Assembly: GCF_001664485.1 (NCBI RefSeq)
Contig: NZ_CP013630.1
Span: 3,913,501-3,977,500, forward strand
Direction of reading: 5' to 3'
Length of the DNA stretch: 64,000 bases
Source: Rhizobium sp. N324
Lineage (GTDB): Bacteria; Pseudomonadota; Alphaproteobacteria; Rhizobiales; Rhizobiaceae
Under the pieces are notes generated by a model, which was given only the letters and a program-made list of their open reading frames with translations, searched no databases and had not been told where the DNA came from. Below, piece after piece: positions 5,554 through 16,138 of the stretch (position 1 is its first letter; each line of letters begins with the position of its first letter). The translations under genes and the position numbers were made by a program.

Positions 5554-6021
5554 CTAATCCGCGATGGGAACAAACATCCCGACTTTGATATCTTTCAACA
5601 CGACATTCGTGTGAATGCTTTTGATCTGAGGATTCTCGGACATCAGATTGGCCGTGATTTCATCATATTGTCCGACATCGCGCGCAGTGATGATCGCGAC
5701 TAGGTCGACTGAACCGGTCACATAGTAGACCTGCTGAATATGCGCCTGCTTCGCCAGCCAGACCCGGAACTTGGAAAGAGCGTCATAATTCTCCCGCTCG
5801 ATTTCCATCCCCGCGATGAACATCATTGGGGTTCCGGCCGCCTTGCGATCGACCAGGGCAATCTCGGCCGTGATGATTCCAGAATCGCGCATCCGTTTCA
5901 GACGCCGCTGCACGGCAGAAGCGGAGAGGCCGACGAGGTCGCCGATGATCTCAGCCTTCATCTGACAATCGATCTGGATAATGTCCAGGATTTTGCGGTC
6001 CAGCTGGTCAATCGGTTCCAT
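5554..6021 (-). CDS. Lrp/AsnC-family regulator, upstream of and divergent from hom
   Basis: The 155-residue protein has an N-terminal helix-turn-helix (LDRKILDIIQIDCQ, then LVGLSASAVQRRLKRMRDSG, residues 7-50) and a C-terminal RAM ligand-binding/oligomerisation domain ending in IHTNVVLKDIK. Lrp/AsnC proteins bind amino acids and usually control a neighbouring transport or catabolic operon. It is divergent from the homoserine dehydrogenase gene with 229 bases between, so it is the obvious candidate regulator of the block to its right. Starts at 6027 and 6021 are both ATG; MEPIDQLDRK fits the family better. Confidence 0.88.
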   Translation of the reverse strand: MEPIDQLDRKILDIIQIDCQMKAEIIGDLVGLSASAVQRRLKRMRDSGIITAEIALVDRKAAGTPMMFIAGMEIERENYDALSKFRVWLAKQAHIQQVYYVTGSVDLVAIITARDVGQYDEITANLMSENPQIKSIHTNVVLKDIKVGMFVPIAD

Positions 6022-6250
6022 GATCATCGCCGTCAGTGGTCTTTGCGCATATTATGGCGAATCTGCGCGGTGAAACTGCATATTTCCGTCCATTTACAGT
6101 TATCGCCTTCATCGAGCATGATTCATCGCGGGAAATCTGCACGTCGTGACCGACCTTGGCAAAGTGGCCATCAATTTGGTCGTTCCGCAAGCTTTCCCCT
6201 AACCTTCTGCACCGTCATCCTTTGCTCGTCGCCCATGATGAGGAACCGAG

Positions 6251-7315
6251 ATGGTACAATACAATATCGCGCTTATCGGATTTGGCGGGGTCAACCGCGC
6301 CCTCGCTGAACTCCTGGCCAAGCAGAACGACCGCTGGCGAACCGAGCTCGGTTTTCAGCTCAACATCGTCGCGGTCACCGACCTCAATCTCGGCTCCGTC
6401 GTGTCAGCAAACGGCATCGACGCACGTATGCTCATCGAAACTAGATTTGAGAAGGGCGGGTTCGCGAACCTTTCCGGCGGATCAGCGGAAGCGGATAACG
6501 AGCAGGTCATCAGGCACGCGCCCGCCGACATTGTCGCGGAAGCGACCTTCACCAACCCCGGCGATGGCGAACCGGCCGTTTCCCATTGCCGCTGGGCGCT
6601 TGAAAGCGGCAAGCACGTAATCACCACCAACAAGGGCCCGGTCGCCCTTGCCGCCGCCGATCTTAAGGCGCTCGCCCGGCGCAACCATGTTTCCTTCGAA
6701 TACGAAGGCACGGTGATGAGCGGTACCCCCGTCATCCGCATGGCAAAAGCCACGCTTGCCGGTTCTGGGCTCAACGGTTTCGAAGGCATTCTGAACGGCA
6801 CCTCGAATTTCGTTTTGGGGCGCATGGAAAGCGGCCTCGGCTTCTCGGAAGCAGTCGGTGAGGCGCAGGCACTTGGTTATGCCGAGGCGGATCCGACGGC
6901 TGATGTCGAGGGCTATGACGTGCGGCTCAAGGTGGTCATTCTCGCCAACGAACTGCTTGGCGCCACGCTGACGCCGGGTGACGTTTCCTGCCGCGGTATC
7001 TCGTCACTGACTGTCGCCGACATCCAGTCGGCGGCCAAGGACCGGTGCCACTGGAAGTTGATCGGCTCGGCAATCCGTGGCGAAGACGGCCGGATCGAGG
7101 CCTCCGTGGCACCACGGCGCCTAGCTCTCGACCATCCGCTCGCAGGGGTGGGTGGTGCCATCAATGCAGTTTCCTTCAAGACTGACTTGCTTGGGGCCGT
7201 GACCGTCACGGGCCCCGGAGCTGGACGGGTCGAGACGGCCTATGCGCTTCTCTCCGACATTGTCGCCATCCACCGCGCCGCTCCGGCCCGCATGAACAAG
7301 GAAGCTGCAGAATGA
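6251..7315 (+). CDS. homoserine dehydrogenase, catabolic-type paralogue without ACT domain
   Basis: The 354-residue enzyme interconverts L-homoserine and L-aspartate 4-semialdehyde with NAD(P). It has a Rossmann opening ([13 protein letters not shown], residues 5-17), a TTNKGPVA strand near 122-129, the family motif NGTSNF near 181-186 and the catalytic stretch [16 protein letters not shown] near 216-231 with the conserved Asp and Lys. It lacks the C-terminal ACT domain found in the biosynthetic ThrA/Hom enzyme of rhizobia, so it would not be expected to be inhibited by threonine. It overlaps the aldehyde dehydrogenase by ATGA. Together with the downstream genes this favours use in the oxidative direction, homoserine to aspartate semialdehyde. 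Confidence 0.9.
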
Positions 7316-8721
7316 CTGCTGCAAACCGCCAGATCGCCTCGGCCGCCCCAGAGATCGCCGTCTTAAGTCCCTATGATGGTTCCCTCGTCGATATCGTTTC
7401 GGCCAGCGGCCCGAACGACATCGACGCACTCCTTGCCCGCACCAGGCATGGCGCCGCCCTGTCGCGCGCATTACCCCGGCATCGTCGGGCGGCGATTCTG
7501 GAGAAGGCGGCACGGCTTGTCGAAGAACAGTGCGAAGCGTTTGCCCGGACCATCGTCAGCGAGGCGGGCAAGACAATCGTCCAAGCGCGCAAGGAGACCT
7601 TACGCTGTATCAACACGCTGAAGCTGTCCGCAGAAGAGGCCAGGCGTAACGCCGGGGAGATCGTGCCGTTCGACGCCTATGCGGGCTCTGAGGCCCGTCA
7701 GGGCTGGTTCACACGCGAACCGCTTGGCGTGATCGCCGCCATCACACCCTACAACGATCCTCTGAACCTCGTCGCGCATAAGCTCGGCCCGGCGATTGCC
7801 GGCGGCAATTCGGTCCTGCTGAAGCCTTCGGAGTTAACGCCGCTTTCGGCTCTGAAGCTCGTCGAGACACTGGTTGCGGCGGGTCTTCCGGAAACGGTCG
7901 TCACCGTCGCCATCGGCGGCGCGGATCTCGGACACGCCATCGTTTCTGCTCGGGATATTCGAATGGTGTCGTTTACCGGCGGATTTACGACCGGCGAGGC
8001 CATTGCCCGGTCTGCCGGGCTGAAGAAGCTTGCCATGGATCTCGGCGGCAACGCGCCTGTTATCGTCATGGCGGATTGCGATATCGACAAGGCAGTGGCG
8101 GGGTGCATTTCGGGTGCCTATTGGGCCGCCGGTCAAAACTGCATCGGCGTGCAGCGCATTCTTGTCCAGGCCGACTGCTGCGAGCGCTTCCGTCAGGCAT
8201 TCGTGGCCGGCACCGCCAGGCTTAGCGCCGGCGATCCGGGTCGAGAGGAGACGGATGTTGGCCCGATGATCTCGCCGGCCGCGGCCGAACGGGCGCAAAC
8301 CGCCGTCGAACAGGCAATCGGAGCCGGAGCCCGGCTTTTGTGCGGACACCAGCGCGACGGCGCGCTCTACAGCCCGACGGTGCTTGAAGGCGTTCCTCGC
8401 CAAAGCAGACTCTGGCGGGAAGAGATATTCGCGCCGGTGGTCATGCTTGAGCGCTTCGAGACGCTTGCCGACGCGATTTGCATGGCGAACGAGCCGGATT
8501 ACAGCCTGCATGCCGGGATATTCACCGACAACCTCGCCGATGCGCTGGAGGCTGCGGCCGGCATCGAAGCCGGCGGGGTCATGATCAACGATTCCTCGGA
8601 CTATCGTTTTGACGCCATGCCCTTCGGCGGCTTCAAGCACGGGAGCATGGGGCGGGAGGGCGTACGCTTTGCCTATGAGGATATGACGCAGCCGAAAGTA
8701 GTCTGCATCAATCGCGCATGA
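7312..8721 (+). CDS. NAD(P)-dependent aldehyde dehydrogenase, probably aspartate-semialdehyde oxidising
   Basis: A 469-residue ALDH-superfamily enzyme. Visible landmarks are [25 protein letters not shown] split around residues 144-168, KPSELTP at 170, SFTGG at 221, and the catalytic Cys277 in GQNCIGVQR. The residue usually Glu in the ELGG motif is Asp here (MDLGGNAP, near residue 242), which is seen in some ALDH subgroups. Translation is coupled to hom by a 4-base overlap, so its substrate is very likely the hom product, aspartate 4-semialdehyde, which it would oxidise to aspartate. This differs from the phosphorylating Asd enzyme of biosynthesis. The substrate is inference from context; the superfamily is certain. 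Confidence 0.85.
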
Positions 8722-8852
8722 GCCGGAAAACTGCGGTGTTCCCAAATATACGCGGAGGAACGCCTCAAGAACAGCAAACTGCGCGGCCGAACCCCATCAA
8801 ACGGGGTTAAACTCCTTGACCATAAACCACGCAAAAGTGGGGAACAAAGTGG

Positions 8853-9632
8853 ATGACGAATGATATTTCCTGCGCTTTGCGGGTCGACGACGTGCACAAA
8901 AGCTACGGCGCTCATCAGGTGCTGAAAGGGATTTCCCTTACCGCGAGAAAGGGGGACGTCATATCGCTGATCGGCTCCTCCGGCTCCGGGAAAAGCACCT
9001 TCCTGCGTTGCATCAACTTTTTGGAGATTCCCGATCGAGGGCGCTTCGTCGTCAATGGCGAGGAGGTGGTCTTGAAGACAGGATCGGATGGCCGCGCCCA
9101 CCCTGCCAATTGGCGGCAGGTAGAGCGCATTCGCAGCGGCCTCGGCATGGTATTCCAAAGCTTCAACCTCTGGGCCCACATGACCGTCTTGGAGAATGTC
9201 GTCGAAGCGCCGATCCATGTGCTGGGCCTGGGCCGCAAGGAGGCGACGGAAAAGGCGGAGGCGCTGCTGCAGAAGGTCGGCCTTTATGAGAAGCGCAACG
9301 TCTATCCGGCCTTCATGTCGGGCGGCCAGCAGCAGCGCGCCTCGATTGCGCGGGCGCTTTGCGTCGACCCCTCCGTGATGTTGTTCGACGAGCCGACCTC
9401 GGCGCTTGATCCCGAGTTGGTGGGGGAAGTGCTTAAAGTCATTCGTGATCTCGCCGACGAGGGCAGGACGATGCTGCTGGTCACGCACGAGATGAAGTTC
9501 GCGCGCGACGTTTCCAGCCATGTGATGTTTCTCCATCAGGGGCGCGTTGAGGAAGAGGGCCGGCCGGAGCAGATCTTCGGCGCCCCCAGCAGCGTCCGAT
9601 GTCGCGAATTCACAAGCTCTTCACGTCACTGA
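8853..9632 (+). CDS. amino-acid ABC transporter ATP-binding protein, HisP/OccP type
   Basis: The 259-residue ATPase has Walker A GSSGSGKST, Q-loop FQSFNLW, signature MSGGQQQR, Walker B VMLFDEPTSALDPE and switch His in THEM. The segment from FNLWAHMTVLENV through APIHVLG is characteristic of the HisP/OccP/NocP group that energises uptake of basic amino acids and opines (histidine, lysine, arginine, ornithine, octopine) rather than of the GlnQ group. It lies 131 bases after the aldehyde dehydrogenase, and the binding protein and two permeases follow. The preference for arginine-like substrates matters for what the whole block degrades. Confidence 0.92.
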   Translation: MTNDISCALRVDDVHKSYGAHQVLKGISLTARKGDVISLIGSSGSGKSTFLRCINFLEIPDRGRFVVNGEEVVLKTGSDGRAHPANWRQVERIRSGLGMVFQSFNLWAHMTVLENVVEAPIHVLGLGRKEATEKAEALLQKVGLYEKRNVYPAFMSGGQQQRASIARALCVDPSVMLFDEPTSALDPELVGEVLKVIRDLADEGRTMLLVTHEMKFARDVSSHVMFLHQGRVEEEGRPEQIFGAPSSVRCREFTSSSRH

Positions 9633-9669
9633 GCACCGTTATTCGCCAATCAAAAGAAAGAGAACTGAC

Positions 9670-10440
9670 ATGAAAACTGCAATCTGCCTCATTGCCGGAG
9701 CCACTCTTCTCGCCTCTGCCGCCGGTGCGAACGCCGAAGTGCGCTTTGGCATCATGAATGAAGCCTACCCACCGTTCTTTACGAAGGACGCGAGCGGGAA
9801 TTGGGTCGGCTGGGAAATCGACCTGATGAATGCCGTCTGCTCCGAAATGAAGGAAACCTGCTCGGTCGTCGACATGTCGTGGGATGGCCTGATTCCCGGC
9901 CTCCAATCGAAGAAATTCGACGTTATCTGGTCTTCCATGTCGATCACCGATGAGCGCAAGAAGACGGTCGCCTTCACCGACAAGTACTACAACACGCCGA
10001 GCAAGCTGATCGGCGCGCAGGATGGCAAGACCGGCACCACGGCCGAGGATATCGCCGGCAAGACGATCGGCATCCAGGTTTCCACGATCCAAGCGGATTA
10101 CTACAAGAAATACTATGCGAGCGCTTCCTCGGAAAAAACCTATGCGACGCTCGACGAGGCGTTTCAGGACCTGGCCGTCGGCCGCATCGACTATGTCTTC
10201 GGTGATTCCATCCCGCTGATGAGCTTTCTCCAGACGGATTTTGGCAAGGGCTGTTGCGAGGATAAGGGCAACGTCAAGGATGACCCGCAGGTTTTGGGAC
10301 AGGGTATCGGTGGCGGCTTGCGCAAGGAGGACACCGAGCTTCTGGCAAGGCTGAACACCGCCATCGCCGCCGTACGGGCCAGCGGAAAATACGCTGAAAT
10401 CTCCAAAAAATATTTCGACTTCGACCTCTACGGCGAATGA
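9670..10440 (+). CDS. family-3 periplasmic amino-acid binding protein
   Basis: The 256-residue protein opens with a clear Sec signal peptide (MKTAICLIAGATLLASAAG, cleavage near ANA-EV) followed by the family 3 solute-binding fold: RFGIMNEAYPPFF, GWEIDLMNAVC, MSWDGLIPGLQSKKFD and MSITDERKK motifs. I start at ATG 9670 with an AAAGAGA site; the longer frame overlaps the ATPase gene. The SMSITDERKK(T)VAFTDKYY segment contains the usual alpha-carboxylate contacts. It supplies substrate to the two permeases encoded next. A strong hairpin follows its stop codon, which would be expected to raise its level above that of the permeases. Confidence 0.9.
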   Translation: MKTAICLIAGATLLASAAGANAEVRFGIMNEAYPPFFTKDASGNWVGWEIDLMNAVCSEMKETCSVVDMSWDGLIPGLQSKKFDVIWSSMSITDERKKTVAFTDKYYNTPSKLIGAQDGKTGTTAEDIAGKTIGIQVSTIQADYYKKYYASASSEKTYATLDEAFQDLAVGRIDYVFGDSIPLMSFLQTDFGKGCCEDKGNVKDDPQVLGQGIGGGLRKEDTELLARLNTAIAAVRASGKYAEISKKYFDFDLYGE

Positions 10441-10512
10441 ACGAAGTGCACGGGGGCGCGGCGAAGCGCGTCTCCCGGCATCCATTCCAACAATACCTTC
10501 TGAAAGAGAAAA

Positions 10513-10544
10513 GCGTTCGAGCCGCAAGGGTCTCGCTCGAACGC
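10513..10544 (+). other. intercistronic hairpin between binding protein and permease
   Basis: GCGTTCGAGC at 10513-10522 pairs perfectly with GCTCGAACGC at 10535-10544 around a 12-base loop. It sits about 70 bases after the binding-protein stop and 15 bases before the permease start, with no T-run. Such hairpins protect the 3' end of binding-protein messages from exonuclease and explain excess binding protein over permease; here that is inferred. Confidence 0.6.
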
Positions 10545-10559
10545 CGAGGAGCTGTTTTC

Positions 10560-11282
10560 ATGGCGACAAGCTCATCCATTGTGGAACTGCTTTCCCCATA
10601 TCCGCCCGGCTGGGGTGGGGTGCTGCTTTCGGGCGCGGCCTCAACCATCCTGATTTCGCTCGGTGCGTACGTGTTCGGCATACTGATCGGGCTGGCGGGT
10701 GCGACAGGTAAACTCAAGGGCAGCCGCGCCGTCGTCACCCTGCTGGATTTTTACACGACGGCAGTGCGCGCCATTCCGGAGCTGATCCTGATCATCGGCC
10801 TCTATTACGCCGGGACGGACGGCATCAACAGGGTGTTGTCCACGCTCGGTCTTCCATCGATCGAGATCAACGGCTTCCTTGCCGCGGTCGCCGTACTGGG
10901 CATCGTCCAAGGCGCCTATATGATCGAGGTGTTGCGCGGCTCGATCCTCGCCATTCCCATTGGCCAGATAGAGGCCGCCAGCGCCTTCGGGATGCGGCCC
11001 TGGTTGCGCTTCCGGCGGATCGTGCTGCCGGCGCTGATGCCGAACGCCCTGCCCGGCATGGCCAATTTGTGGATGTCGGTCACCAAGGACAGCGCGCTGA
11101 TCGCTGTCGTCGGATACCAGGAGTTGGCGTTGGCAACACGGCTCGCCGCCGGCAATACCAAGCATTACTTCCTGTTTTTCCTGGCCGCAGCCGTGCTCTA
11201 CCTGGTGATCACCCTCGTCTCCAATATCGTCTTCGGAGGTCTTGAAACCCATTTCCGGCGTGGACAGCCGAAATCAGCCTGA
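10560..11282 (+). CDS. amino-acid ABC transporter permease (HisQ-like)
   Basis: A 240-residue inner-membrane permease with about five spans. The first is near residues 22-48 (GAASTILISLGAYVFGILIGL), and the EAA loop IEAASAFGMRPWLRFRRIVLP near 140-160 contacts the ATPase. The ATG at 10560 has AGGAG 8 bases upstream; the longer frame from 10437 would overlap the binding protein and add an unlikely basic leader. It pairs with the second permease to form the heterodimeric channel of HisQM/OccQM-type importers. Confidence 0.9.
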   Translation: MATSSSIVELLSPYPPGWGGVLLSGAASTILISLGAYVFGILIGLAGATGKLKGSRAVVTLLDFYTTAVRAIPELILIIGLYYAGTDGINRVLSTLGLPSIEINGFLAAVAVLGIVQGAYMIEVLRGSILAIPIGQIEAASAFGMRPWLRFRRIVLPALMPNALPGMANLWMSVTKDSALIAVVGYQELALATRLAAGNTKHYFLFFLAAAVLYLVITLVSNIVFGGLETHFRRGQPKSA

Positions 11283-11293
11283 GGAGATAGACA

Positions 11294-11983
11294 GTGGATT
11301 TCTCATGGGTTTCCAGCTATTGGCCGCTTCTCGTTGCGGGCGCGACACAGACCATCTTGCTGCTTGTCATCTCGGTCGCTCTCGGGTTCGTCCTGGCGAT
11401 TGGTCTTGCGCTCGCGCAGATCGGCGGACCCTATTGGCTGCGATGGTGCGCCAAAAGTTACTGCACCTGCCTGCGCGGCACACCCCTGCTCATCCAATTG
11501 TGGTTGCTCTACTACGGTGTCGGATCCTTGCTGCCGATGATCCCGGGTCTGCGCGCAAGCTTCGTTTGGCCGATCGTGCGCGAGGGCTTCTTCTTCGCTG
11601 CGGTCAGCTTCACGCTCAACTACGCGGCCTACGAGGCCGAAGTATTACGCGGCGCGCTGCTTGCGGTGCCGAAAGGCGAACTGGAAGCCGGTCGCGCCTT
11701 TGGCATGACCCGCTGGACGCTTCTGCGACGCATATGGTTGCCGCGGGCGACCCGCATCGCCCTGCCGACGATCACCGGCGAGGTGGTGCTGCAACTGAAG
11801 GCAACGCCGCTCGCCTTCACTGTCACAGTAATGGATCTTTATGCCGTCGCCTACAAGATCAGGCAGGACACGCTGCTCGTCTACGAGCCTCTGATTGTCG
11901 TCACCATCTTCTATGTCTGCCTCACCATCGTCATCACGCGCGCCTTTCGCATTGTCGAAAGACAGCTGCCGGCGAGGCGCTGA
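11294..11983 (+). CDS. amino-acid ABC transporter permease (HisM-like), GTG start
   Basis: The 229-residue partner permease begins at GTG 11294, preceded by GAGGAGATAGACA, 11 bases after the first permease stops. It has about five membrane spans and the EAA loop ELEAGRAFGMTRWTLLRRIWLP near residues 133-154. Segments YAAYEAEVLRGAL and QLKATPLAFTVTVMDLYAVAYKI are typical of basic-amino-acid/opine permeases of the OccM/HisM kind. It completes an importer with the ATPase and binding protein encoded just upstream. Confidence 0.9.
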   Translation: MDFSWVSSYWPLLVAGATQTILLLVISVALGFVLAIGLALAQIGGPYWLRWCAKSYCTCLRGTPLLIQLWLLYYGVGSLLPMIPGLRASFVWPIVREGFFFAAVSFTLNYAAYEAEVLRGALLAVPKGELEAGRAFGMTRWTLLRRIWLPRATRIALPTITGEVVLQLKATPLAFTVTVMDLYAVAYKIRQDTLLVYEPLIVVTIFYVCLTIVITRAFRIVERQLPARR

Positions 11984-12014
11984 CGCTCTCGTTTGAAATT
12001 TACCGGAGAATCCA

Positions 12015-12065
12015 ATGTTCAAAGAAATCGACCGGGCCATGCGCCACGCCGGCCTTCCGGCCTGA
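12015..12065 (+). CDS. possible 16-residue leader peptide or gene remnant
   Basis: After a good CGGAGAATCC ribosome site comes ATG and 16 codons (MFKEIDRAMRHAGLPA), then TGA. The same frame stays open beyond the stop to about 12195, reading into the 5' end of the PLP-lyase gene. The good ribosome site with an immediate stop suggests either a leader peptide, or the beginning of a gene cut short by a nonsense or deletion event. The 200-base gap is otherwise unusual in an operon with tight spacing. No family recognised. Confidence 0.3.
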   Translation: MFKEIDRAMRHAGLPA

Positions 12066-12186
12066 TCGGCTCAACTGCCGCGCACACTGCTTCTCCGCGC
12101 CGCGTCAAGCAGCGCTCGCGAGATTGCACGGCTGAAAAACGACCACCTCCCTCAAATTCCAGGGAGTGAAATTGCAGGAGAATGTG

Positions 12187-13458
12187 ATGACCGCAACAAA
12201 ACTCTCAGATCTGCCCGCGCGCGGCATCGACCAGCGGAAGGCGGCGCCTGCCGCAAACGCGGGGCCCAGTCGAGAAACCCTGGCGCTAAACGGCGGGCTC
12301 GTCATCGACCCGGCGACGAAGGCGATCGCCCCGAACATTTCCATGTCCGTCAACAATGTGTTTATACCTGGCGACGGCCCATTTTCCGCCGACGGCGTCG
12401 ACGACCTGACGGCGCTGCCCTTTCTCTATGCGCGCTGGACCAACCCCACCGTGCGCCAGCTGGAACAGCGATTAGCCGCGCTCGAAGGGGCCGACGATGC
12501 GATGGCCACGGCGACGGGCGTCGCGGCGATCGGAGCCACGTTCTTCACCTTCCTCAAGAAGGGCGATCATCTGATCCTGAGCGATGTTTGCTATGCCGGC
12601 GCCAATGAGCTCGCCCGGCGCATATTGCCGGACTACGGTATTGAGGTGACGCCGGTCAATATGTCCCGCCCTGAAGACGTGGCGGCCGCCTTCCGGCCCA
12701 ACACGCGGCTCGTCCATTGCGAAAGTCCGTGCAATCCGATCCTGCGTCTGACCGACCTTGCTGCCATTGCCGAGCTTGCGCGAAAACACGGGGTTTTGAT
12801 GTCGGTCGATTCGACGCTTGCCACCCCCGTGGCCACGCAGCCGCTCTTGCTTGGCGTGGATCTCGTCATCCATTCGCTCACGAAATTCATCAACGGCCAT
12901 GGCGACGCATTGGGTGGAGTTGTCTGCGGGCGGAAGGAACTGGTTGAGAAAATCCGCTCGCGCGCCGGCGTCTATCTCGGTGCGTCGATGCCGGCCATGA
13001 ACGCCTGGCTGATCATGCGCGGCATCGATACACTGTTTCCCCGCATGCGCATGATCTCGGAGTCGGCCGCGAAGATCGCGGTCTTCCTTCAGGGCCATTC
13101 CGCTGTGGAGACGGTGACTTATCCCGGACTTGCTTCCCATCCCCAGCATGATCTGGCGAAGCGCCAGATGGATATGTTCGGAGGCATCGTGACCTTCCGG
13201 GTGAAGAATCCCGGCCAGATGGCGCGACAACTCGCCGAACGCCTCAAAGTCGCCCATTATACCTTCTCGCTCGGTCATCAGCGCTCGATCGTCGTCTTGC
13301 TCGACACGCAGGAAATGATGAAATCCACTTACCAGCTGACCGGCGAGCAGCTCGAGGATTACCGCCGTTTTGCCGGCGACGGCGTGTTCCGCCTGTCGGT
13401 CGGGCTGGAAGCGACCGACGATCTGATCGGCGATCTTCATCAGGCTATTTCCAACTGA
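12187..13458 (+). CDS. Cys/Met-metabolism PLP enzyme, candidate canavanine gamma-lyase
   Basis: The 423-residue protein belongs to the cystathionine gamma-synthase/lyase fold. Marks are YARWTNPT (residues ~86-93, cofactor-phosphate Tyr and Arg from the partner subunit), ATATGVAAIGA (cofactor clamp), SDVCYAGA with the substrate-side Tyr, SVDSTLATP with the pyridine-N Asp, and Lys233 in HSLTKFINGHGD, which forms the internal aldimine. It is not next to sulfur genes but between a basic-amino-acid importer and aspartate ammonia-lyase, with homoserine dehydrogenase upstream. Canavanine gamma-lyase, a member of this family known from Pseudomonas and Rhizobiales, splits canavanine to homoserine and hydroxyguanidine, and its partners are exactly these enzymes. 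Start ATG 12187 has AGGAG 7 bases upstream. Alternatives are methionine or O-acyl-homoserine gamma-lyase. Confidence 0.7.
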   Translation: MTATKLSDLPARGIDQRKAAPAANAGPSRETLALNGGLVIDPATKAIAPNISMSVNNVFIPGDGPFSADGVDDLTALPFLYARWTNPTVRQLEQRLAALEGADDAMATATGVAAIGATFFTFLKKGDHLILSDVCYAGANELARRILPDYGIEVTPVNMSRPEDVAAAFRPNTRLVHCESPCNPILRLTDLAAIAELARKHGVLMSVDSTLATPVATQPLLLGVDLVIHSLTKFINGHGDALGGVVCGRKELVEKIRSRAGVYLGASMPAMNAWLIMRGIDTLFPRMRMISESAAKIAVFLQGHSAVETVTYPGLASHPQHDLAKRQMDMFGGIVTFRVKNPGQMARQLAERLKVAHYTFSLGHQRSIVVLLDTQEMMKSTYQLTGEQLEDYRRFAGDGVFRLSVGLEATDDLIGDLHQAISN

Positions 13459-13484
13459 GCGGAGAGAAGGAAGGAGCGGGGGCC

Positions 13485-14894
<1,410 letters not shown>

Positions 14895-14906
14895 AGGAAA
14901 GCAAAA

Positions 14907-15701
14907 ATGGCTGTTTTCACAGATCTGTCGGAGGCAGACTGCGGGAGGATCGCGACGGCCTATCGTCTGGGAAGTCTTACATCGGTGATCGGCATTGCCG
15001 ATGGTGACGCCGAAACCACTTACCTTTTCCGCTCCGCGCGCGGTGAGTTCATTGTCACCTTATTCGAAAGCGAGGCCGACCCCTTCGACCTCGAGGGGGC
15101 CTTCCGAACGATGGAAACGCTGTCTGGCGCCGGCATTCCCTGTCCGGCAACCTTTCGCACCGACGCCGGTGCGGCGACGATTACCGTGTCGGACAAGCTT
15201 GTCGCCGTTGTCGGTTTTGTGCCAGGCTCTCGACTGAGCGAAGTCACTCCGGGCAAATGCCATGCGCTTGGGAGCTGTGTCGCACGAATCCACGAGACAC
15301 TGAGGCGTTCAACAACACGAGCCTCGCTCGGGCTGCCGAAAGGTCCTGTGCACGGTGCGCTCAATCGCGACAACGTCTTCTTCCTCGACGAGATGGTGAG
15401 CGGCGTCATCAATTTCCGCTTGCGCCATGATGATGTTCTGATCGCCGAACTCGCGGAGGTCATAGTGCATTGGGCTGTGGCAGCAGACGGCACTCTCGAG
15501 AGGACGCTCGTCAGCGCATTGCTCGCTGGCTACGACGACATCAGGTCCCTCAGCGAAGCGGAGTGGCGGGCCGTGCCGGCTTTCGTCATGGCAGCGGCCG
15601 CCACCATGTTTGCGCAGAACGACAGACTTGCCGATCTCGAAGCCGCCACACAGCGGGTCTTCCTCTCCGCCAAGGACTGCATTCAGGATATCCGGCCATG
15701 A
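14907..15701 (+). CDS. homoserine-kinase-II-like protein lacking catalytic aspartates (pseudokinase)
   Basis: The 264-residue protein is a clear relative of ThrB2 homoserine kinase (APH/choline-kinase fold): it starts MAVFTDLSEADC and has LGSLTSVIGIADGDAETTYLF-type opening, a GIPCPAT strand and a long collinear C-lobe. In active ThrB2 the catalytic loop reads HADLFPDNVFF and the metal-binding segment reads GLIDF. Here they read HGALNRDNVFF (catalytic Asp replaced by Ala151) and GVINF (Mg-ligand Asp replaced by Asn169). Both key acids are gone while the frame is intact and the surrounding sequence conserved. Phosphotransfer is therefore unlikely. A role in binding homoserine, perhaps as a sensor or regulator of the pathway, is inference. 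It overlaps the AsnC gene by ATGA. Confidence 0.8.
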   Translation: MAVFTDLSEADCGRIATAYRLGSLTSVIGIADGDAETTYLFRSARGEFIVTLFESEADPFDLEGAFRTMETLSGAGIPCPATFRTDAGAATITVSDKLVAVVGFVPGSRLSEVTPGKCHALGSCVARIHETLRRSTTRASLGLPKGPVHGALNRDNVFFLDEMVSGVINFRLRHDDVLIAELAEVIVHWAVAADGTLERTLVSALLAGYDDIRSLSEAEWRAVPAFVMAAAATMFAQNDRLADLEAATQRVFLSAKDCIQDIRP

Positions 15702-16138
15702 AGCGCATCCTCGACCGATCCGACGAGCGCATTCTAACCGAGCTAACCCGCAACGGCCGGATTCCCCACGCCGAACTGGCCGAAAAAGTCCACCTGTCGC
15801 GCAACGCCGTTCGCCAACGCATCGAGCGATTGGAACGCGACGGCCTGATTCAGGGCTATACGATTGTCGTAGGCGACGGAAAGCCGCGGGCAGCCATCAC
15901 AGCAATGATCTTCGTGTATCGTCACGACCGTATGCGCGGCGGCGACGTCATCCAGACGCTCAAAGGGATACCGGAGGTCGTCTCCTGCGACGTCATGAGC
16001 GGTGAGTTCGACCTGGTCGTGCGGGTTGAGGCAAGCGCGGCAGACCGCATCCGCGAAATCTGGCAAGAGGTTTCGGCGATGCAAGGGGTGCGTGACACGC
16101 TGACGGCATTTGCCCTGTCTTCGATGATCAAGCGTTGA
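15698..16138 (+). CDS. Lrp/AsnC-family regulator closing the homoserine/canavanine block
   Basis: The 146-residue protein has a helix-turn-helix (ILDRSDERILTEL, then LAEKVHLSRNAVRQRIERLERDG, residues 3-48) and a RAM domain (FVYRHDRMRGGDVIQTLKGIPEV, then CDVMSGEFDLVVRVEA). Its ATG at 15698 overlaps the stop of the kinase-like gene (ATGA), so it is translated from the same message. The product would then be made with the pathway enzymes, as in autoregulated catabolic operons. It is not a near copy of the other Lrp protein at 5554-6021, which suggests different effectors, for example the imported substrate and a pathway intermediate. Confidence 0.88.
   Translation: MKRILDRSDERILTELTRNGRIPHAELAEKVHLSRNAVRQRIERLERDGLIQGYTIVVGDGKPRAAITAMIFVYRHDRMRGGDVIQTLKGIPEVVSCDVMSGEFDLVVRVEASAADRIREIWQEVSAMQGVRDTLTAFALSSMIKR

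Follow-up and report, generated by a model that had tools for sequence, protein, structure and literature searches.

A Homoserine-to-Fumarate Operon of Rhizobium sp. N324 with a Candidate S-Methylmethionine Importer and Lyase

The Locus and Its Genes

The operon described here occupies positions 5554–16138 of a 64,000-nucleotide stretch of Rhizobium sp. N324 DNA (NZ_CP013630.1, 3,913,501 to 3,977,500; hereafter the window), on contig C1 (4.64 Mb) of a six-contig genome totalling 6.97 Mb. It joins genes for the conversion of homoserine to fumarate to an ATP-binding cassette (ABC) importer and a pyridoxal phosphate (PLP) lyase. A preliminary description of the same DNA had placed these genes between two Lrp/AsnC regulators and proposed that they degrade canavanine. 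All are present, open, and in the order given, and a homoserine-to-fumarate gene set does accompany an importer of HisP/LAO type and a PLP enzyme of gamma type; the canavanine operon relies on this set as well. As judged from sequence comparison, the observation is confirmed and the homoserine-to-fumarate route is supported, whereas canavanine is not supported as the substrate.

Every gene is on the + strand except that of the divergent regulator Lrp1 (5554–6027, − strand; PF13404 and PF01037). The divergent intergenic region, set by the gene limits at 6028–6250, presumably carries the promoter and the Lrp1 site. Homoserine dehydrogenase (HSD; 6251–7315; NF004912, 471.9 bits against a cut-off of 373) overlaps by four bases the aldehyde dehydrogenase (ALDH; 7312–8721; PF00171), whose presumed substrate is aspartate semialdehyde. 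The importer comprises a HisP-type ATPase (8853–9632), a solute-binding protein (SBP) of LAO/HisJ type with Q117 and I121 in LAO numbering (9670–10440), and two permeases with PF00528 (10560–11282, its start placed by comparison with relatives, and 11294–11983). A remnant of a dapA-like gene (12015–12065) precedes the PLP lyase, a member of the Cys/Met-metabolism PLP enzymes (12187–13458; PF01053, E 3.5e-106) that is termed the gateway lyase below. Aspartate ammonia-lyase (aspartase, AspA; 13485–14894; NF008909, 656.6 bits against a cut-off of 510), a ThrB/APH-like protein (14907–15701), and Lrp2, an Lrp/AsnC regulator (15698–16138) that overlaps its predecessor by four bases, complete the series. 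The arrangement is not due to chance because nine other named loci (L012, L016–L022, and L034) keep Lrp1, HSD, ALDH, importer, lyase, ThrB-like gene, and Lrp2 in the same order, seven of them with aspartase as well.

Operon Architectures

Four architectures can be distinguished among the relatives. Type A consists of Lrp1, the four ABC genes, and a homocysteine S-methyltransferase (HMT), without a lyase; type B inserts a lyase of the window's kind (clade W, below) between importer and HMT. In type C, to which the window belongs, Lrp1 is followed by HSD, ALDH, the ABC genes, (DapA), the clade-W lyase, (AspA), the ThrB-like protein, Lrp2, and (HMT), the bracketed genes being variable. Type D is the canavanine operon. 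An Lrp1-type regulator stands in front of most type A–C loci; for five of the 21 type-A loci, none was found. The ten distinct type-C loci (the window and the nine named above) were brought in by their lyase; HSD, ALDH, the ThrB-like protein, and Lrp2 occur in all ten, aspartase in eight, and an intact dapA in four. The window genome holds type C on C1 and type A on C2 (L174, G000:C2:227831-240727), the two SBPs being 74% identical; the HMT of L174 is the sole one of this genome at E <= 1e-10.

A canavanine operon with a canavanine-gamma-lyase (CanGL) was reportedly described by Hauth et al. in 2022. The representative used here, on plasmid pRLN3 of R. leguminosarum Norway (from Lotus), reads B3/4(CtdA)-ABC(4)-PLP-SMR-HSD-ALDH-DapA-AspA-phosphotransferase-Lrp. 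Its PLP enzyme shares 87% identity with P0135 of R. leguminosarum WSM2304 (UniRef name beginning with "Canav"), 74–75% with several Pseudomonas enzymes, and 74% with P0190, which one source names canavanine-gamma-lyase. The window proteins resemble their Norway counterparts at 74% (HSD), 70% (ALDH), 76% (ATPase), 61% (SBP), 69 and 68% (permeases), 64% (aspartase), 57% (ThrB-like), and 67% (Lrp2) identity. The PLP lyase, at 42.6%, falls well short of this range of 57–76%. A common chassis with another gateway lyase is the simplest description of the window relative to the canavanine operon.

The Homoserine Chassis

The preliminary description had recognized a homoserine-kinase-like protein next to the aspartase. 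Its membership in the ThrB family stands, as shown by alignment with the homoserine kinase 2ppq; its kinase activity is doubtful, since the motifs HADL…IDF of 2ppq read HGAL…INF in the window, and both aspartates (of HxDL and IDF) are missing. HGA[LI] and INFR are found together in 20 of 22 type C and D loci and INFR alone in the other two, genome repeats included; HGAL…INF recurs in all three of the modules on pRL8, pNGR234b, and pAt2788b. The loci with the motif (the window, L011–L013, L016–L022, L034, and L226–L228) are homoserine modules of three operon kinds. The protein thus looks like a conserved, ThrB-derived pseudokinase, and a fair guess is that it serves as a homoserine sensor working with Lrp2. 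In one of these modules (L228:6925-13815, A. fabrum pAt2788b), the neighbors are a gene of the octopine/nopaline dehydrogenase family and a phosphotransferase, perhaps a further gateway.

In R. sophoriradicis (L034), a dapA-like gene lies between permease 2 and the lyase, and it is also intact in L012, L016, and L021. The window matches both ends of the L034 gene, with eight shared bases at the junction and a loss of ~0.8 kb, after which a frame of 16 codons remains. DapA is probably dispensable because it is intact in only four of the ten type-C loci. HSD of the window kind is found in 56 plasmid records (E <= 1e-60), pRL8 among them. A second HSD match on C1 of the window genome, with 38% identity, is perhaps the biosynthetic enzyme.

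The Gateway Lyase

In a maximum likelihood tree of 90 rows, from which near-copies above 93% were removed, the window lyase belongs to clade W (31 rows, support 100/100), while the CanGL sequences form clade C (14 rows, 100/100). Sister to W is mid50, a third clade of ~50% identity to the window lyase (24 rows plus five ungrouped rows inside, 98/84), which stands between W and the CanGL clade. A long-branch warning applies to the outer paralogs and methionine gamma-lyase (MGL), rows that lie outside W, mid50, and C with the exception of L040 (mid50). The preliminary description had held that clustering with MGL or O-acetylhomoserine (OAH) sulfhydrylase would speak against canavanine. No such clustering is seen: the window lyase sits apart from the sole MGL included, in a clade of its own, in a tree without a named OAH sulfhydrylase.

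Residues were compared in Citrobacter freundii MGL numbering, with row sets that include near-copies; the E114/D240/N61 feature used below was defined in this analysis and not taken from print. MGL has G114, C115, K239, and D240. Clade C harbors E114, D240, N61, and V338 (26/27 each) together with A115 and V239 (27/27 each). In contrast, clade W harbors A114, G115, Y240, and W61 (52/52 each) as well as V239 and F338 (51/52 each), and it retains Y58, R60, Y113, D185, S207, K210, and R374. In window numbering, W84, Y136, Y263, and F360 are candidates for a sulfonium-binding cage. Mid50 has H240 in 37 of 37 rows, V338 in 37, and W61 and A114 in 26 each. The alignment with canavanine-gamma-lyases that the preliminary description had called for yields A114/Y240/W61 in the window enzyme versus E114/D240/N61 in CanGL. 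The acidic pair E114/D240 would hold the oxyguanidine head of canavanine in the CanGL clade, whereas the W pocket is predicted to be uncharged and aromatic.

Profile searches do not place the enzyme in a named family. It scores below the cut-off of all 25 NCBIfam models shown out of 58 matched, the best being MGL (TIGR01328, 322.3 bits against a cut-off of 549.7). The best solved relatives are also methionine gamma-lyases (279.1 bits). C115, K239, and D240, taken here to be diagnostic of MGL, are G, V, and Y in the window lyase. On the cut-off and these residues, a plain methionine gamma-lyase was set aside as unlikely.

Two observations concern other branches of the family. Several canavanine loci (L011:5913-7163, L075:2127-3329, L214, L217, and L221) carry a second Cys/Met-type PLP gene near CtdA, which forms its own branch in the lyase tree. 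The neighbors of mid50 lyases include an amidase (L210 and L212), GatB (L212), and, for the one scanned neighbor in L211, a beta-lactamase-fold protein; they give no indication of an ancestral substrate.

The Importer

In the SBP tree (FastTree, rooted on LAO), the 55 distinct sequences of types A–C fall on one side (support 0.79), and the 11 sequences of type D group with a support of 0.94. Two LAO positions separate them without exception: positions 117 and 121 are Q and I or V in 55/55 sequences of types A–C and A and T in 11/11 of type D. Trp at position 52 is common to both, as is Asn at position 11; the site of LAO Asp11 was therefore dropped as a discriminating feature. The window SBP is 69–72% identical to SBPs of operons with HMT alone and 61% identical to the canavanine SBP. 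The preliminary description had reasoned that an importer for basic amino acids favors canavanine. By sequence, however, the window importer has its closest relatives in operons with HMT alone, whose importers are expected to carry a methyl donor for homocysteine.

Gene Neighbors: HMT, CtdA, and SMR

Neighborhoods of up to ~12 kb on either side of the lyase were compared at 26 clade-W loci, of which 21 were fetched from genome contigs by the lyase, four are chosen plasmid loci (L012, L013, L014, and L016), and one is the window. HMT is present at 19 of them; neither CtdA nor the SMR exporter is found at any. Of the 16 CanGL loci, 11 have CtdA, and not one has HMT. For P. canavaninivorans and R. 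leguminosarum, CtdA, a B3/4 deacylase, is published as adjoining the canavanine degradation genes (PMC10018355). Of the CanGL loci that lack it, L073 and L074 have insertion sequences nearby, L078 is from A. fabrum, and L215 and L219 are additional copies, the other copy of the same genome being accompanied by CtdA.

A survey of Rhizobiaceae covered 394 genomes each for lyase W, HMT (E <= 1e-90), and CanGL (E <= 1e-150) and 384 for CtdA (E <= 1e-60); some of its genomes are also named loci (L017 = G023, L020 = G757, L021 = G462, L032 = G734, and L033 = G607), so the two sets of counts overlap. Lyase W (67–100% identity) was found in 17 genomes, with a 49–51% relative in three more; HMT was found in 62, CanGL in 6, and CtdA in 13. 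HMT is encoded somewhere in 16 of the 17 lyase-W genomes versus 46 of the 377 others (Fisher p 3.5e-13, without correction for kinship). Its distance to the lyase is at most 4 kb in 11 of the 17, and in five it is located elsewhere (G000, G474, G549, G607, and G734); G023 is the only W genome in which the survey found none. At its E threshold, CtdA is absent from the window genome, which contains a second B3/4 protein with 30% identity to CtdA. One genome, G462, keeps both systems in full: the lyase-W operon, HMT included, is on C2, and the canavanine operon, CtdA included, is on C4. It is the only lyase-W genome among those with CtdA in the 384-genome search, whose negatives are not all listed.

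The survey gave 63 HMT places, and contexts were taken for 60 (G692, G612, and G599 were left out). At the 43 places where HMT identity is at least 67% (L146–L188), an importer of A–C type accompanies HMT in 31 (21 A, 8 B, and 2 C), the lyase is present in 11, and HMT has neither in 11. The 17 loci with distant HMTs (54–62%, L189–L205) have no SBP of A–C type. In A. larrymoorei (L013, on a plasmid named pTiAF3.44), lyase W, pseudokinase, Lrp2, and HMT lie beside an unannotated two-piece HSD match, and the importer adjoining the lyase is of another type (SBP 30% identical).

Compared with profile models, an HMT of the relatives is closer to MmuM, the SMM type (129.5 bits), than to the betaine type (63.7 bits); among solved structures it comes nearest to the homocysteine S-methyltransferase 5dml (66.5 bits), against 44.5 bits for betaine-homocysteine methyltransferase. 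The GGCC motif of the HMT family, which presumably binds zinc, is found as GGCCG in 123 of the 124 loci with HMT aligned over >250 aa (genome repeats included).

Substrate of the Operon

Linkage to HMT, kinship of the importer, and the missing acidic pair together point to S-methylmethionine (SMM) as the substrate. SMM is a cationic plant amino acid that carries a good γ-leaving group, dimethyl sulfide. It also donates a methyl group to homocysteine, as described for E. coli MmuM (PMC12366255). On this basis, the operon is read as a homoserine chassis (HSD, ALDH, aspartase, pseudokinase, and Lrp2) with a non-canavanine importer and lyase and with SMM as its most likely substrate, at a probability of about 0.5. 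That SMM or a close sulfonium is the best replacement for canavanine can be put at about even odds. Somewhat more tentative is the assignment of clade W as an SMM gamma-lyase that forms dimethyl sulfide and homoserine and that is one of several interchangeable gateways on a chassis serving canavanine and, probably, free homoserine.

It is hypothesized that the ABC system imports a cationic amino acid, most likely SMM, whose γ-substituent leaves readily, and that the PLP lyase expels this substituent (dimethyl sulfide in the case of SMM) to yield homoserine. HSD, ALDH, and aspartase would then convert homoserine via aspartate semialdehyde and aspartate to fumarate and ammonia. Homoserine is the probable product because the chassis is common to the canavanine operon. 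In the canavanine-gamma-lyase reaction, according to PMC10018355, the leaving group departs and homoserine results; sulfonium cleavage with the same outcome would feed the same chassis.

Several points weigh against SMM. The methyl donor of HMT is unproven because the two HMTs of relatives, at 129.5 and 122.2 bits, score below the MmuM cut-off (NF007020, 215), and dimethylsulfoniopropionate (DMSP) or betaine may also be donors. HMT is absent from the window locus and from L012, L017, L019, L032, L033, and L034; only five of the ten type-C loci have it, and the HMT counted for G549 is of a distant kind (56%). At L206–L209, the lyase stands with neither importer nor HMT; of six neighbors scanned at L206 and L207, three have Pfam matches (an EngA-kind GTPase, a glycosyltransferase, and NnrU) and offer no clue. 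Asn11 and further residues of the pocket are common to the A–C SBPs and the canavanine SBP. In the lyase, positions 61 and 338 are taken to line the pocket that receives the side chain in MGL. No Rfam element, for example a SAM riboswitch, was found either between 4000 and 18000 of the window (E <= 0.1) or, at gathering score, in ten related loci.

The lyase could instead be a second, divergent canavanine gamma-lyase in an operon that consumes canavanine. The chassis and importer superfamily are those of the real canavanine operon, and, mid50 aside, no clade of the tree is closer to W than CanGL. This is nevertheless quite improbable, given a lyase outside the CanGL clade that lacks E114/D240, the absence of CtdA and SMR from all 26 lyase-W loci, the lack of CtdA in the window genome at E <= 1e-60, and the retention of both systems side by side in G462; it also leaves the HMT association unexplained. 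Alternatively, the lyase may act on methionine or another γ-substituted amino acid (O-acylhomoserine, cystathionine, or selenium analogues), with HMT supplying methionine. The best NCBIfam model and solved relatives of the lyase are MGLs, and HMT makes methionine, yet the C115/K239/D240 positions and the family score depart from MGL. MGL cleavage of methionine yields 2-oxobutyrate, a product that would idle HSD, ALDH, and aspartase in type C, and this reading is unlikely.

Free homoserine might also be the food, with the lyase incidental. HSD, ALDH, pseudokinase, and Lrp2 are 73, 69, 55, and 67% identical to pRL8 genes of R. johnstonii 3841, and a homoserine cluster near an orthologous gene is described for R. 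leguminosarum (PMC10228743). However, the importers most similar to that of the window belong to HMT-only operons, where HSD was not found. The lyase is present in 10/10 type-C loci, a count that is not independent because these loci were brought in by the lyase. Taken together, free homoserine is very improbable as the substrate.

Implications

Judged by gene content alone, the block would pass for a canavanine operon, a label at odds with the lyase, with the residues of that enzyme, and with its neighbors. A modular design is suggested in which one homoserine-to-fumarate chassis receives different gateways. Bacterial conversion of SMM to dimethyl sulfide (EC 3.3.1.2) is known from work of the 1960s. 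In a full-text literature search, with most subscription journals outside its coverage, no top-ranked title names a PLP lyase gene for SMM. If the sulfonium assignment is true, clade W would provide a gene for this activity, rhizobia would consume a plant sulfur amino acid and be a terrestrial source of dimethyl sulfide, and a dimethyl sulfide source in the rhizosphere would be directly testable.

Comparison with Known Systems

The window lyase shares the PLP fold family of C. freundii MGL and the seven residues retained in clade W (Y58 to R374). It differs from MGL by the replacement of C115/K239/D240 with G/V/Y and by a score far under the family cut-off.

Use of SMM through mmuPM, of which MmuP is taken to be the permease, offers a second comparison. 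Type-A loci likewise join an importer for amino acids to an HMT that belongs, broadly, to the family of E. coli MmuM (PMC12366255). In contrast to mmuPM, they use an ABC importer instead of a permease, and their HMT lies below the MmuM cut-off; mmuPM has nothing corresponding to the lyase or to the homoserine chassis.

The homoserine region of pRL8 in R. johnstonii 3841 (RL_RS25505 and neighbors) resembles the window in HSD, ALDH, ThrB-like pseudokinase, and Lrp. The 19 kb examined contain no clade-W lyase and no importer of A–C type, and the aspartase match there covers only 274 of 469 residues.

The canavanine operon differs from the window in the clade of its lyase, in the presence of CtdA and SMR, and in SBP residues 117 and 121; the window, in turn, has a divergent Lrp1 in front and HSD-ALDH before the importer. 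Common to both are the importer, the gamma-type PLP enzyme, HSD, ALDH, aspartase, the phosphotransferase, and Lrp.

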